From: Candidatus Minthousia equi
GTDB taxonomy: Bacteria; Bacteroidota; Bacteroidia; Bacteroidales; Bacteroidaceae
Assembly (NCBI GenBank): GCA_018065125.1
Contig: JAGHTY010000118.1
Span: forward strand, 1 to 36,483
Direction: 5' to 3'
DNA length: 36,483 nucleotides
Shown: piece by piece, positions 21,565 to 34,658 of the stretch
Layout of the letters: each line of letters starts with the position of its first letter
Position numbering within the stretch: position 1 is the first letter of the stretch
The notes under the pieces: generated by a model
Databases searched by the model: none
Seen by the model: the letters and a program-made list of their open reading frames with translations, nothing else
What the model was told of the DNA's origin: nothing
Position numbers and translations under genes: made by a program

Positions 21565-21638
21565 GCTTCAATAGCTCAGTTGGTTAGAGCACCTGACTGT
21601 TAATCAGGGGGTCGTTGGTTCAAGCCCATCTTGAAGCG
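21565..21638 (+). tRNA. tRNA-Asn (GTT), copy 1
   Basis: Cloverleaf GCTTCAA/TTGAAGC acceptor, GCTC/GAGC D-stem, CCTGA-CTGTTAA-TCAGG anticodon arm, TTCAAGC T-loop. Confidence 0.95.
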
Positions 21639-21659
21639 CTAAACAAAAGAAATGCAACT

Positions 21660-21733
21660 GCTTCAATAGCTCAGTTGGTTAGAGCACCTGACTGTTAATC
21701 AGGGGGTCGTTGGTTCAAGCCCATCTTGAAGCG
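21660..21733 (+). tRNA. tRNA-Asn (GTT), copy 2, identical to copy 1
   Basis: Same 74-nt sequence repeated after a 21-bp spacer. Confidence 0.95.
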
Positions 21734-24883: not shown

Positions 24884-25157
24884 ATGGCCTTATGAAAATT
24901 GCGTTAAGAAAATCAAGGTTTATGAGGATAAGGAGCGGGGGTTGTTTGAGCGAAGCGACCTAAGAAGTTCCTGCCTCACTGGAGGGACGTTAAGAAATTT
25001 GAAGGATGTGCGTTAAGATGAGCAGGCTGTTTGAGCATGTAATGCGAGTTTCTGCGAATTAGCACATACGCACAAATTTTAGTCCTGGAAGTGCAGCAGG
25101 TGAACTTTCTTTTTGTTTCTTTGTCTTTCCTTCATGGGAAAGACAAAGAAAGTAGAT
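24884..25157 (+). repeat. Mosaic repeat: alpha left half (24884-24957) fused at the core to a beta element (24962-25157)
   Basis: atggccttatgaaaattgcgttaag...ggagcgggggttgtttgagcgaagcga then cctaagaagttcctgcctcactgg...gcgagtttctgcgaattagcacatacg...; ends in CTTTGTCTTTCC-ttcat-GGGAAAGACAAAG hairpin. Confidence 0.85.
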
Positions 25158-25170
25158 AAAGAAAAAAAGA

Positions 25171-25230
25171 ATAAGAAAGGAAATTCCTTTCTAAAAAAAA
25201 CTGTGATACTGTGATCTGTGATCGCAACAA
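25171..25230 (+). repeat. ACTGTGATACTGTGATCTGTGATCGCAA module, copy 1
   Basis: aagaaaggaaattcctttctaaaaaaaactgtgatactgtgatctgtgatcgcaacaa. Confidence 0.85.
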
Positions 25231-25783: not shown

Positions 25784-26017
25784 AATACTATAGTATTTAG
25801 GTTTATAAATTTTATTTTTTGCAAAGATACAAACTTTATTTAAATGTCTAAAGATTTACATACAAATTTGTTATGAGTTATCAATTTTGTAATAATGGTA
25901 TGCTTTCTCCTCTTCTTTTGCTTACCTCGCTTCGTTCTCTTCATTTCTTTTATGGCATAATAACATTTTAGTAAGTCTTCTTGCATTATTAATAGATTTT
26001 CTCTATTTTTGCAGTAT

Positions 26018-26172
26018 AAATGTTTCACTAAAACACAAAGGAATAAGAACCAGAAAAGAAATAGAATATAAGTTGCCTTGCTAACATAGAATACGGCAAT
26101 GCAAGTAAAATAGTCCTCCACAAGGCTCCCATTTATGACGTAGGGAGAAATCGTTGTGGGGGACTATTTTGT
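26018..26172 (+). ncRNA. Structured small RNA candidate, copy 1 (promoter plus two stems, second terminator-like)
   Basis: TTG (25981-25983)-N20-TATTTTTG (26004-26011) promoter; stem 1 TTGCcTTGC/GCAAtGCAA; stem 2 TAGTCCTCCACAA/TTGTGGGGGACTA then TTTTGTTTTT. Homologous to 33013-33163. Confidence 0.65.
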
Positions 26173-26221
26173 TTTTACGAGAATTTTAAATAAAATAGTT
26201 TGGATTTGTTCACTAATTAGT

Positions 26222-26229
26222 TATCTTTG
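26222..26229 (+). promoter_or_regulatory. -7 box TATCTTTG of the HigBA-like operon
   Basis: TTTG 26199-26202, N19, TATCTTTG 26222-26229; ATG at 26241. Confidence 0.6.
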
Positions 26230-26240
26230 CAGCAAGCTTA

Positions 26241-26615
26241 ATGAAAAAAGAAAGAAATTATGTAAGGCAGATAGTTCCATTTCGCGAATATTTCAAGGAA
26301 TTCAAGCGAACACTGCCAAAAGAAGTCCTCGAGAAAATATATAAGGTATTCATCTACATAATGGTAGAACAGGTAATACCTTCACAGTTTTTCAAGAGTA
26401 TCGAAGGAGTAAAGGGGTTGTATGAAATAAGAGTAGAAGAAAGTGGAAACATTTATCGTATATTCTGCTGTATGGACGAAGGAAACCTAGTTGTTCTCTT
26501 CAATGCTTTCCAAAAGAAAACAACGAAAACACCGTCTCAGCATATTAAGCGTGCAACTGCAATTATGAAAGAATATTTTGCCGAAAAGGCTCAACTTAAA
26601 AACAGAAAACAATGA
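26241..26615 (+). CDS. HigB/Gp49-like RelE-superfamily toxin
   Basis: IKGLYEIRVEESGNIYRIFCCMDEGNLVVLFNAFQKKTTKTPSQHIKRA style motif; directly upstream of an XRE antitoxin with overlapping stop/start. Confidence 0.85.
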   Translation: MKKERNYVRQIVPFREYFKEFKRTLPKEVLEKIYKVFIYIMVEQVIPSQFFKSIEGVKGLYEIRVEESGNIYRIFCCMDEGNLVVLFNAFQKKTTKTPSQHIKRATAIMKEYFAEKAQLKNRKQ

Positions 26616-26920
26616 CACAGGAAGAGTTAAAAGCAATAGGATGCACCCCACTGGAAGATCTGATAACCGAGGATTTTGGCGCCTTGGGCACCCCAGAACG
26701 CGAAAACTTTGAATTGGGTTGCGATGCCTTTATTATAGGTGAACGCCTAAAGGCAGAACGTCTGAAAGCAGGACTCACGCAAGAACAACTTGCAATTAAA
26801 ATAGGAACAAAAAAAAGTTTCATCTCACGCGTAGAGAATGGTCATGCCGATATTCAGCTCTCTACTCTTTTCCGCATATTCAATGGCTTAGGAAGAAGGG
26901 TTTCCTTATCAATATTATAA
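26612..26920 (+). CDS. XRE-family (HigA-like) antitoxin
   Basis: ERLKAGLTQEQLAIKIGTKKSFISRVENGHADIQLSTLFRIFNGLG HTH. Confidence 0.88.
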   Translation: MTQEELKAIGCTPLEDLITEDFGALGTPERENFELGCDAFIIGERLKAERLKAGLTQEQLAIKIGTKKSFISRVENGHADIQLSTLFRIFNGLGRRVSLSIL

Positions 26921-28548: not shown

Positions 28549-28635
28549 GTTTATTCTTTTTTAGAAAGGACACATTCCTTTCAATTTCTTATTTCTTTTA
28601 CTTTCTTATTCTTTCTTCTTTTCTACTTTCTTTTT

Positions 28636-28852
28636 CTTTCCCATGAAGGAAAGATAAAGAAACAAAAAGAATTGTAAATCGCTGTGGGAGGCGAAGCCGA
28701 GGTAAGCAAAGTTCACCTGCTGCACTTCCAGGACTAAAATTTGTTCGTATGTGCTAATTCGCAGAAACTCGTGCTTCGCACTCAAACAACCTGCTCATCT
28801 TAACGCACATCCTTCAAATTTCTTAACGCCCTTCCAGTGAGGCAGGAAACTC
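28636..28852 (-). repeat. Mosaic repeat, beta copy 2, with a delta segment (tcgctgtgggaggcgaagccgaggtaagcaaa) inside
   Basis: Reverse complement matches 24962-25157 on either side of the delta segment at 28674-28709. Confidence 0.85.
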
Positions 28853-30364: not shown

Positions 30365-32392
30365 ATGAAAAGAATATTATTACTCTGTTTCTGTATAGTA
30401 ACCTCAATGGGAATGTTTGCACAGCATCAGCATGCCGGCAGAAAGAAAGTTGGTGTAGTGCTATCGGGTGGTGGCGCAAAAGGCGCTGCGCACGTAAAGG
30501 CACTGAAAGTTATAGAAGAGGCTGGCATTCCTATCGACTATATTGCTGGAACAAGTATCGGATCGCTTGTGGGTGGCATGTATGCTTCGGGATATAATGC
30601 CGACCAGATAGACAGCCTTATGCGCAGCCAAAACTGGGGCACCTTGCTAATGGACAAGACCGAAAGAAAGCAGCTGAGCCTTTACGAGAGGGAACAGGTG
30701 GATAGAAACATCTTGTTGGCAAAGTTTGAAAAGACCCCTGGCGAGATTATTCAAGGAGGTGTGCTGAAAGGTTATAACGTGGCAAAACTGCTGACGCAGG
30801 TTACCGCCGACACCCCCGACAGCATGAGCTACGACAAACTGAAGATTCCTTTTGCCTGCGTGGCTACAGATGTGGTAACGGCACAAGAGGTGGATATGCG
30901 CGCTGGCGTACTGGCCGAGAGCATGCGTGCCAGCATGGCCATACCAACGGTTTTTGCGCCTGTGGTAAAAGGCGATAAGGTGCTAACAGATGGTGGCATT
31001 ACAAACAATTATCCTGTCGACCTTGTTAGAAAGATGGGAGCTGACTATGTGATAGGCGTGGATCTTTCTGAAGAGGTCTTGCCTTCAAGCAAGCTCAATA
31101 CCGCTCAGGCCATTGCCCTTAGGCTTATCGACATTCTCTGCATGAAAAAGCACGATGAGAATGTGGCAAATACCGATGTTTATATTAAGGTGAACGTAAA
31201 AGGCTATTCTTCGGCCAGTTTCAACAGCGAGGCGATAGATACGCTTATGCACAGAGGTGAGGTGGCTGCGCGTGGAAAATGGGACGAGCTGATTGCCTTG
31301 CGCGAAAAAATAGGACTGAAAAATCCTTTGCCTGCACCCCACCCTCGTGCAATGCCAAAGGATATGTACAACGTGGTGCCAGTGCCTTCTATCTACAAGG
31401 CAAACGAGCGAAACAGCTTTGTGGGTGTAGGTGCAAGGTTTGACAAGGAAGAACTTGCCAGCTTGCTGCTCGACGGCATGCTTGAACTAAACCACAAGAA
31501 GAAACTAAGCGTAGGTTTCGAAGCCCGATTGGGTAGAAGACTGAACATAGACCTCTACAGTAAACTGCACCTAAGCAGCGCATGGGTGGCACAGCTGAAG
31601 TATAACTTCAAATATAACGACATGAAGATATACGACAAGGGCGAACCTGTGTCGGAGGAAACGAACAACGGACACATTGTGCAACTGGATTTTTCACGCT
31701 ACTGGAGGAACTGGAAGGTAATGTTTGGCACTCGTTACTCTTACTACAGCTTTGATGAATCGCTGGTGCATAAAGACTATCTCGACTGGGCCGAGGATTC
31801 AAGCTCTGAACCAAGCCTGGGATACTTTGGCCGAGTAACTTTTGATAATCGCGATGCCAACGACAATGCCACAAGGGGCATGCTGTTCACCGTGGGTTAT
31901 GAACTGTTTACCGACAATGGCTGGTCGTTCGAGGGTGGCAAGGCGGTGAACATTCTTGATGCCAAGTTTGCCATTGCGCTGCCTTTGTCAAACGCTATCA
32001 CGCTAACACCAAGCGTGGCAGGCAGATGGATGTCGAAGAACGATTATTTCACTATCTGCAACTGCATAGGTGGCGTGAATACCGACGGACATTACATGTC
32101 TCAGCAGATAGCCTTTGCCGGCATAAACTATCTTCAGCTGGTAAAGAATAATCTGTTTGTGGCTGGCATTACGCTGCGCCATGCCATAGCATCAAAGCAT
32201 TATGTTTTTGCTGTAGGAAACTACGGTCAGCATTCTGATAAATTCTTCAGCACCAACAGCTCAGACCATCTTTATGGTGCAGCCCTTGGCTATGGCTATA
32301 AGTCGGCCATCGGTCCGCTCGAACTAAACTTCAACTGGAGCAATATGACGAAGAAGGTTGGCGTTAGCGTTAATGTAGGGTATATGTTTTGA
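30365..32392 (+). CDS. Patatin-like phospholipase with C-terminal outer-membrane beta-barrel domain
   Basis: VGVVLSGGGAKGAAHVKALKVIEEAGIPIDYIAGTSIGSLVGG, DGGITNNYPVD; C-terminal surface-antigen-like barrel ending NVGYMF. Confidence 0.92.
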   Translation: MKRILLLCFCIVTSMGMFAQHQHAGRKKVGVVLSGGGAKGAAHVKALKVIEEAGIPIDYIAGTSIGSLVGGMYASGYNADQIDSLMRSQNWGTLLMDKTERKQLSLYEREQVDRNILLAKFEKTPGEIIQGGVLKGYNVAKLLTQVTADTPDSMSYDKLKIPFACVATDVVTAQEVDMRAGVLAESMRASMAIPTVFAPVVKGDKVLTDGGITNNYPVDLVRKMGADYVIGVDLSEEVLPSSKLNTAQAIALRLIDILCMKKHDENVANTDVYIKVNVKGYSSASFNSEAIDTLMHRGEVAARGKWDELIALREKIGLKNPLPAPHPRAMPKDMYNVVPVPSIYKANERNSFVGVGARFDKEELASLLLDGMLELNHKKKLSVGFEARLGRRLNIDLYSKLHLSSAWVAQLKYNFKYNDMKIYDKGEPVSEETNNGHIVQLDFSRYWRNWKVMFGTRYSYYSFDESLVHKDYLDWAEDSSSEPSLGYFGRVTFDNRDANDNATRGMLFTVGYELFTDNGWSFEGGKAVNILDAKFAIALPLSNAITLTPSVAGRWMSKNDYFTICNCIGGVNTDGHYMSQQIAFAGINYLQLVKNNLFVAGITLRHAIASKHYVFAVGNYGQHSDKFFSTNSSDHLYGAALGYGYKSAIGPLELNFNWSNMTKKVGVSVNVGYMF

Positions 32393-32933: not shown

Positions 32934-33012
32934 AAAGAAAAAAGGACATCAATCCCACATTATTTTTACTAATTATTCTTTGATGCAGATTTATTGTCGT
33001 ACCTTTACCAAC

Positions 33013-33163
33013 GTAATCAAAAACAGGAATTAAGAAACAGAAATAAAAGCATATCAGTTGCCTGCCAACACATAGTTTCATGGCAAGGCACGTAAAGCAG
33101 TCCTCCACAAGGCTCCCATTTGTGCACAGGGAGTTTACTTTGTGGGGGACTGTTTTGCTTTAT
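33013..33163 (+). ncRNA. Structured small RNA candidate, copy 2
   Basis: Stem 1 TGCCTGCC/GGCAaGGCA; stem 2 CAGTCCTCCACAA.../...TTGTGGGGGACTG then TTTTGCTTT; weaker promoter TACCTTTA at 33000-33007. Confidence 0.6.
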
Positions 33164-33206
33164 CGGTAAGTAGAGAATTGAAAAAATATGGAAAATAGGT
33201 ACAAGA

Positions 33207-33710
33207 ATGGATAGGGATAAGACTATAAAAGAGGAAGAGGCGTATTATCCCGATGAGATATTTGGCAATAGGTTGATGATCAGCCTTAAAGCCGATATAA
33301 CAGAATTAAAAAGCAACATACGGGCTGCCCGAGCAATTTTGAATTCTTATACTGAGGTTGTCATTGAGATTAACCCTCATAGCATTTCATTCGGCCATAA
33401 GAATCCAGAATATACCATTTGCAATCAGTTAGGTGACCGCAAAGGTATAATGGGTGAGAAAGGTGTAACGGCAGGATTCAAGTCGGCAAAAAAACAGGGA
33501 TGCAAGGTAATAGTCATAGATCTTGATGAGCATATTTTACAAGTTAGGCCATTTGAACTATCAAAATACATTTCTCGCAGGAAAAAGGATTTTGACAACC
33601 TAGCTATTTTGGCCTGCTATGTGGTTTTCGATGGAGAAGCAGTGAGAGTAAATGCCAGCTACCAAAGTCGCCGTAAAATAGAAGAGGCAATAAAAACACT
33701 AATGCCGTAA
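33207..33710 (+). CDS. Orphan protein with a CdiA C-terminal tRNase-like (BECR-type) nuclease domain
   Basis: HKNPEYTICNQLGDRKGIMGEKGVTAGFKSAKKQGCKVIVIDLDEHI...YVVFDGEAVRV resembles the NPD...ADLK...KQG...VVIDL pattern of CdiA-CT-like nucleases; assigned by eye only. Confidence 0.5.
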   Translation: MDRDKTIKEEEAYYPDEIFGNRLMISLKADITELKSNIRAARAILNSYTEVVIEINPHSISFGHKNPEYTICNQLGDRKGIMGEKGVTAGFKSAKKQGCKVIVIDLDEHILQVRPFELSKYISRRKKDFDNLAILACYVVFDGEAVRVNASYQSRRKIEEAIKTLMP

Positions 33711-33914
33711 ACTCGCGAAGAATCTACGGCACTAATAAAATAGACGGTTGCGGAGCTTATCGCCTATATGCAACTCTCATCTTTTTCACTGCAAAAATAG
33801 ATATTAATATCGAAACTACCAATTGTTTTATAGGATTTTATCAAATAAAGAACAAAAATGACTGGTAAACATGTTTTGTTTTATCAGTAAGTCAAATTAT
33901 AAAAAGAAAAGAAT

Positions 33915-34094
33915 ATGGAAAAAAGAAACAAGAAAGTTGCGAATCTGGAAATAAAGAATACACTTATTCGTACAATGAAACATGAGGGTGAAGACTTTGT
34001 AGATAAAGGAAAAATGAGCAAAGAAATGGAGAAAATAATCTTTTCAAGAAGAAAAGTTGCAATATCAGGAAACTTTTTATACTTTTGCCGATGA
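33915..34094 (+). CDS. 59-aa ORF preceding the XRE gene, possible toxin remnant or small partner
   Basis: MEKRNKKVANLEIKNTLIRTMKHEGEDFVDKGKMSKEMEKIIFSRRKVAISGNFLYFCR; one residue below the ORF-track cutoff; its end overlaps a promoter. Confidence 0.35.
   Translation: MEKRNKKVANLEIKNTLIRTMKHEGEDFVDKGKMSKEMEKIIFSRRKVAISGNFLYFCR
34057..34087 (+). promoter_or_regulatory. Promoter TTG-N20-TACTTTTG for the XRE gene
   Basis: TTG 34057-34059; TACTTTTG 34080-34087. Confidence 0.65.
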
Positions 34095-34110
34095 AACGGA
34101 GTGTAGTATT

Positions 34111-34404
34111 ATGCAGAAAAGTAATTTTGAATCATTCGATAATGTTCTAGATGAAATGCTGGGTGCCGAGGGAACACCAAAGCGCGAGGCAAACAGAGCC
34201 AAGGCCTATGACGAATACCTGGCAGAAATGGTGCTGGAAAAGAGAAAGGAAGCTGGTCTTACACAATCTGAACTGGCAAGAAGATTGAATACTACCAAAT
34301 CGTATATCTCTAAAATAGAACATGGTGTGGTAAATCCTAGTGCAACAATGTTTCTTAGAATTATCGATGCACTGGGTTTTAACCTTGTTTTAAGTGCAGA
34401 ATAG
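34111..34404 (+). CDS. XRE-family (HigA-like) transcriptional regulator
   Basis: Start at MQKSNFESFDNVLDEMLGAEGTPKREANRAKAYDEYLAEM; HTH EAGLTQSELARRLNTTKSYISKIEHGVVNPSATMFLRIIDALG. The -7 box at 34080-34087 makes the track start at 34057 unlikely. Confidence 0.85.
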   Translation: MQKSNFESFDNVLDEMLGAEGTPKREANRAKAYDEYLAEMVLEKRKEAGLTQSELARRLNTTKSYISKIEHGVVNPSATMFLRIIDALGFNLVLSAE

Positions 34405-34461
34405 TAAGAAACATCATCAAATTTGCAAAAAATCTTGAATTAAGAAACAGAAATAAATAGC

Positions 34462-34658
34462 ATGGCAGTAGCCCTCTTGGGTGTAGTGACAATGGCGTCT
34501 TGTAGCAAGGACAATGATACGCACAGGGGCGTTTTACCCTCCAAAACCACATCGATGATGCTTCAGGATACGGAGGCGTCCATATCAACCAACTTGAGGT
34601 TTTCATGAATGTGTACATGCAATATCATGCTAAGAACTATAACGTGACTTTCAAGTAA
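34462..34658 (+). pseudogene. Decayed lipoprotein gene (lipobox N-terminus plus out-of-frame C-terminus)
   Basis: MAVALLGVVTMASCSKDNDTHRG..., then in another frame FTLQNHIDDASGYGGVHINQLEVFMNVYMQYHAKNYNVTFK* ending at 34658. Confidence 0.6.

Follow-up and report, generated by a model that had tools for sequence, protein, structure and literature searches.

The window analysed in the present study is the whole of contig C120 (36,483 nt), which belongs to the genome assembly of a gut bacterium of the order Bacteroidales (2.6 Mb in 219 contigs, 84% complete). Two regions of this contig carry copies of a predicted structured RNA, the first of which is followed by a toxin-antitoxin module and the second by an open reading frame (ORF), two fragments of the same RNA, and an orphan antitoxin gene. 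The features of both regions are listed below together with two fragments from other contigs; promoter and operator elements were read from the sequence.

25981-26011, plus strand: predicted promoter of RNA copy 1, consisting of TTG (25981-25983), 20 nt, and TATTTTTG (26004-26011)
26018-26176, plus strand: RNA copy 1, predicted start to U-tract (six-copy alignment and fold; 5' and 3' ends predicted)
26073-26104, plus strand: stem 1 of copy 1, TTGC c TTGC / GCAA t GCAA (fold and alignment)
26105-26176, plus strand: stem 2, an intrinsic-terminator-like hairpin with a near-invariant core, and U-tract (fold and alignment)
26207-26229, plus strand: putative promoter/operator of the toxin-antitoxin operon, GTTCACTAATTAGTTATCTTTG
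26241-26615, plus strand: Gp49 (RelE/HigB-like) toxin gene (PF05973, E 2e-19)
26612-26920, plus strand: HTH antitoxin gene, HigA-like (PF01381, E 9e-13)
33000-33007, plus strand: predicted promoter box of copy 2, variant TACCTTTA
33015-33162, plus strand: RNA copy 2 (fold, alignment, and covariance model)
33207-33710, plus strand: 167-aa ORF with weak similarity to a CdiA C-terminal toxin domain (PF18451, E 0.012, below the cut-off)
33872-33934, plus strand: fragment, RNA 3' end and downstream flank (blastn E 1e-11; repeat D2)
34111-34404, plus strand: orphan HTH antitoxin gene of a Gp49-type module that has apparently lost its toxin (PF01381, E 4e-15)
34428-34473, plus strand: fragment, 5' part of the RNA (blastn E 1e-11; covariance model E 0.07)
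Contig C102, 17065-17134: fragment, promoter region and first RNA bases (blastn)
Contig C83, 19495-19522: fragment, RNA 3' end (blastn)

Elsewhere in the window, two tandem tRNA genes with equal scores (21565-21733) and an Omp85-type barrel fused to a Patatin-like phospholipase (30365-32392) were recognized. A separate intergenic repeat family occupies 24951-25153 and 28597-28848; at least 10 copies of it are present in the genome, with identities of up to 96%, and two sister species contain diverged matches (71%). The sequence CTGTGATACTGTGATCTGTGATCGCAA is present at four intergenic places (near 25200, 29425, 32906, and 34671), each time 3' of an A-run. A 38-nt direct repeat around RNA copy 2 was considered as an insertion footprint, and this reading was dropped because its sequence is also found elsewhere between genes of the window.

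The RNA had previously been described, in a sequence-only reading, as a two-copy element, and both copies were found where that reading had placed them, aligning over about 140 nt with 84% identity. The count was too low: blastn searches and a search with a 21-mer of the hairpin revealed six full copies in the genome, namely, the two in the window and single copies on contigs C8, C68, C186, and C3, which share 80-96% of their bases, and a 321-nt query added the four fragments by blastn. A covariance model recovers the same six copies, the scores of which are not independent evidence because the model was built from them. The RNA is approximately 150 nt long from the predicted start to the U-tract in the alignment, and every copy has the same layout of a promoter box, an A-rich 5' tail, a small split stem 1, a long hairpin, and a U-tract. 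The promoter elements and T-tract that had been proposed for copy 1 are both present in the sequence, the U-tract following the second hairpin. The other copies have the box TATCTTTG or TACCTTTA at about the same position. The promoter box of each copy is of the Bacteroides type or differs little from it, and it keeps its place even though the flanks of copy 1 (w1), C8, and C68 differ. Downstream, a flank of 20-50 nt is common to several copies. The truncated copy on C102 (L081:1500-1570), which has a clostripain-family gene ahead of it, passes abruptly from the first RNA bases into unrelated sequence. A coding function was rejected, the longest ORFs being 28-37 codons, depending on the copy, with a start and strand that vary.

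Regarding the fold, both window copies were far more stable than their dinucleotide-shuffled versions (z scores of -4.6 for copy 1 and -5.0 for copy 2, with 0 of 200 shuffles as good), in agreement with the original proposal of a structured RNA. The six-copy consensus combines the split stem 1 with a hairpin of 26 bp that carries a side bulge, and 97% of the alignment cells are paired in it, against 45-53% in slid controls. Compensatory changes had been claimed for both stems. The change in the outer pair of stem 2 is genuine (C-G to U-A in two of the six copies) and is the one two-sided pair change in the alignment, whereas those described in stem 1 proved to be an effect of register, since all changes in that stem are one-sided (C-G to U-G), pair-breaking, or a register shift. 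With one pair in stem 2 and none in stem 1, the argument from compensatory changes is weak, and covariation is modest, its score being reached by 16 of 500 shuffles. The pattern of change is stronger evidence than covariation. Mismatches amount to 12% in the stem 1 arms, 23% in the tail, and 31-33% in the loops, and 2 of the 36 columns in the GC core of stem 2 and the inner helix are variable; the sequence of the hairpin core is therefore held more tightly than pairing alone needs. The low divergence of the core may stem from recent copying or gene conversion, and conversion between the copies is an alternative cause of the tight conservation of the hairpin; long-term constraint is unproven because homologues were not found outside this genome. 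The view that the RNA falls outside known families, 6S types included, was upheld by a search of all 4,227 Rfam families, none of which matched it at the gathering threshold, at which the two tRNAs elsewhere in the window were the sole matches; a relaxed search returned sub-threshold matches, mostly of microRNA- or snoRNA-like families. A structured, probably transcribed RNA lying outside Rfam is well supported.

The earlier remark that both copies lie upstream of toxin-like genes proved to be the most important point of all. It holds for copy 1, which precedes a Gp49 gene (PF05973), and weakly at best for copy 2, where the CdiA_C match (E 0.012) is below the curated cut-off; the structure model of the 167-aa ORF (mean pLDDT of 36) is too poor for use, and no solved relative of this ORF was found. 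A profile search detected four PF05973 genes in the assembly, and a full copy of the RNA lies directly upstream and on the same strand at all four (window 26018, C8, C186, and C3). An HTH antitoxin gene lies 3' of the toxin gene at each of these loci, which is the ordinary HigBA-like type II order, and the modules are ordinary members of this type by family match as well as gene order. To our knowledge, an upstream RNA is present in no described module of that kind. The chance of at least four of the six copies adjoining Gp49 genes is approximately 1e-10, a rough figure that assumes about 2,300 genes and independent placement.

The association extends to a fifth Gp49-type locus, at which an RNA 3' fragment lies upstream of the orphan antitoxin gene (34111-34404), and a Gp49-type promoter and what appear to be the first codons of the lost toxin can still be discerned. 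On C83, a 3' fragment lies ahead of a HigB (PF09907)/HTH module, and the RNA is absent at the three other HTH-antitoxin modules that were examined (two on C206 and one on C24). The location before toxin-antitoxin genes suggests that the RNA may be a partner of selfish modules. Two of the six full copies, namely, copy 2 and that on C68, have no adjacent Gp49 module, which counts against an sRNA partner, as does the abundance of other intergenic repeats in the genome. The C68 copy precedes repeats and then a Y1-type transposase gene; these repeats (L018:440-1190) are hairpin-forming units (ACCGCCC...GGGCATCAAGC), and their arrangement with the IS200-like transposase is as in REP/RAYT clusters.

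The next gene lies on the strand of the RNA at all six full copies, and each Gp49 toxin gene has a separate promoter-like box ahead of it, which is approximately 45-140 nt from the end of the U-tract hairpin. Considering this spacing and the hairpin being the most conserved part of the RNA, its strong terminator may be its only useful part, acting in cis as an insulator that guards an autoregulated toxin-antitoxin promoter from read-through. We consider this improbable: a mere terminator needs neither a promoter, a stem 1, nor a fixed stem sequence, conservation extends to the promoter box and the arms of stem 1, and relatives of the modules manage without the RNA. The same strand and short distance would also fit a leader with attenuation, in which some transcripts that start at the RNA promoter read through the terminator into the toxin gene. 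Short ORFs that start with ATGGAAAA or a similar sequence follow the terminator at C8 and C186 (L017 and L019), C68, copy 2 (33193-33207), and the fragment at 33872, with those at C8, C186, and copy 2 overlapping the beginning of the following gene, as may be expected of a leader; however, copy 1 and C3 have no such ORF, no upstream segment that could pair with the 5' arm of the hairpin as an antiterminator was seen, and each module has its own promoter-like box, which is common to relatives without the RNA. A leader is, accordingly, very unlikely in our judgment. Another idea, that the 5' tail controls its cognate toxin as an antisense RNA, is unsupported, since the duplexes between the tail and the start of the cognate toxin gene did not exceed shuffled expectation (40 mononucleotide shuffles each).

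The order of promoter, RNA, terminator, and toxin gene is that of the type III system toxIN (PMC8860590), and a nearly identical RNA stands ahead of all four toxins, which raises the issue of whether it is an RNA antitoxin that acts through direct binding to the toxin protein. This appears to be the least probable of the explanations considered, because the toxins match PF05973 Gp49 and not ToxN, each of them has its own HTH antitoxin, and the RNA is absent from relatives of the toxins. Furthermore, there is no array of tandem RNA repeats as in type III systems; each locus has one unit with two different hairpins.

The RNA and the modules appear to differ in age. The toxins share 35-50% of their residues and the antitoxins 33-52%, whereas the RNAs share 80-96% of their bases. 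Relatives of the toxins in other Bacteroidota have similar operator-promoters, such as GTTCACTAATTAGTTATCTTTGC in L138, the element of which is the same as that at 26207-26229, and TTAACTTTG-type boxes in L130-L134, and a covariance model search of 28 and 80 loci found no RNA upstream of such relatives, the best matches being at noise level. In the sister species G003, a toxin gene closely related to that of C3 (L062) lacks the RNA, and the genes that flank the C8 locus, which are approximately 2.7 kb apart here with the RNA and module included, are 37 nt apart in G003. Since the toxins have diverged and their relatives keep similar promoters without the RNA, the RNA has the appearance of a young transcription unit of its own set before old modules. 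Either it arrived in front of modules that were already old and diverse, or the modules came to lie behind it.

The sequence-only reading had looked to covarying homologues in other genomes, and none were found outside the source genome. Searches were negative in 60 relatives by blastn and, by the covariance model with strict prefilters, in six genomes of the genus and 400 of the family; the hairpin pattern was not found in GTDB species genomes or viral contigs, nor was the RNA found in the plasmids or phages searched. A search of 394 genomes of the order with the 21-mer core, allowing up to two mismatches, gave one foreign match against two for a reversed-pattern control. These searches, which covered genome assemblies, viral contigs, plasmids, and phages, may have left out strains of the same species, and strongly diverged forms would escape them; the pattern of RNA and module is known from one incomplete, fragmented assembly.

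The main rival explanation is that the element acts as DNA, as a mobile intergenic repeat or recombination site, with the hairpin joining modules or repeats in a manner resembling a cassette array and transcription being incidental. The youth of the RNA relative to the modules is consistent with this, as are the flank of 20-50 nt common to several copies, a genome full of other intergenic repeats, and the order at 33015-34473, where the RNA, an ORF, an RNA 3' fragment, an antitoxin gene, and an RNA 5' fragment follow one another. Integron cassettes are selfish genes, often toxin-antitoxin genes, that are arrayed in one orientation with hairpin-forming attC sites. The present loci resemble them in combining selfish toxin-antitoxin genes with hairpin-forming sites in a uniform orientation, and differ in that the copies are dispersed and show no attC R-box motif by eye. 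In addition, inspection of the six flanks by eye revealed no terminal inverted repeats or target duplications, although the copy boundaries are uncertain, and the retention of the promoter box between diverging flanks and the shared strand with the next gene at every full copy count against a DNA element. We regard a DNA repeat as possible, but rather unlikely.

The explanation that we favor, with a probability that we place at about even, is a family of stand-alone, terminator-ended sRNA genes that has spread as an upstream partner of type II toxin-antitoxin modules. The number of copies, the conserved hairpin core, the position and orientation before the modules, and the separate toxin promoter-like boxes, on which this explanation is based, were read directly from the sequence. 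The RNA family would have multiplied recently in one lineage and come to lie upstream of the modules. The RNA would be made from its own promoter and its transcription would stop at the hairpin just ahead of the toxin promoter, so that the terminator would also shield that promoter from upstream transcription. More tentatively, the RNA may act in trans as an accessory of the modules, most likely through binding of the invariant hairpin to a protein that is common to the loci or general to the cell. That one near-identical upstream RNA modulates several divergent type II modules, as an RNA-coupled type II system, is a more doubtful extension of this idea.

Among known RNAs, the closest parallels are the multicopy sRNAs FopS and GibS of Bacteroides thetaiotaomicron; FopS is a 14-member family of about 65-70 nt that represses SusC-type mRNAs, and these sRNAs are characterized by an R1 seed sequence at the 5' end and by RbpB binding (PMC11697453). 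Similar to the RNA described here, these are paralogous sRNA genes scattered across a Bacteroidales genome, each with a promoter of the Bacteroides type and, for some members, a 3' end at a predicted terminator (PMC11697453), whereas the present RNA is approximately 150 nt long and, therefore, outside the FopS length, contains a long hairpin, and is linked to toxin-antitoxin loci. The six-member BTnc020/BTnc054 family also consists of multicopy sRNA genes that each adjoin mobile-element genes, in that case transposases or invertases (PMC11697453); by its description, it differs in its neighboring genes. In ISPpu9, the sRNAs Asr9 and Ssr9 are reported to regulate one transposase gene, and sRNA genes travel with a multicopy selfish element, whereas one RNA accompanies several divergent toxin-antitoxin modules here (PMC8450116). 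No RNA tied to Gp49 modules was described in the open literature that was searched, most subscription papers being beyond its scope, and we consider this structured RNA gene of approximately 150 bases to be undescribed.

Should the RNA prove functional, type II modules would be capable of having an RNA partner in common, which would blur the distinction between protein- and RNA-controlled systems and offer a means of linking many modules in one cell. As a mobile repeat, it would illustrate how a single element reaches a position ahead of divergent toxin-antitoxin modules. Either way, one RNA tied to all four detected Gp49 loci and to a toxin-less fifth represents a clear and testable pattern.
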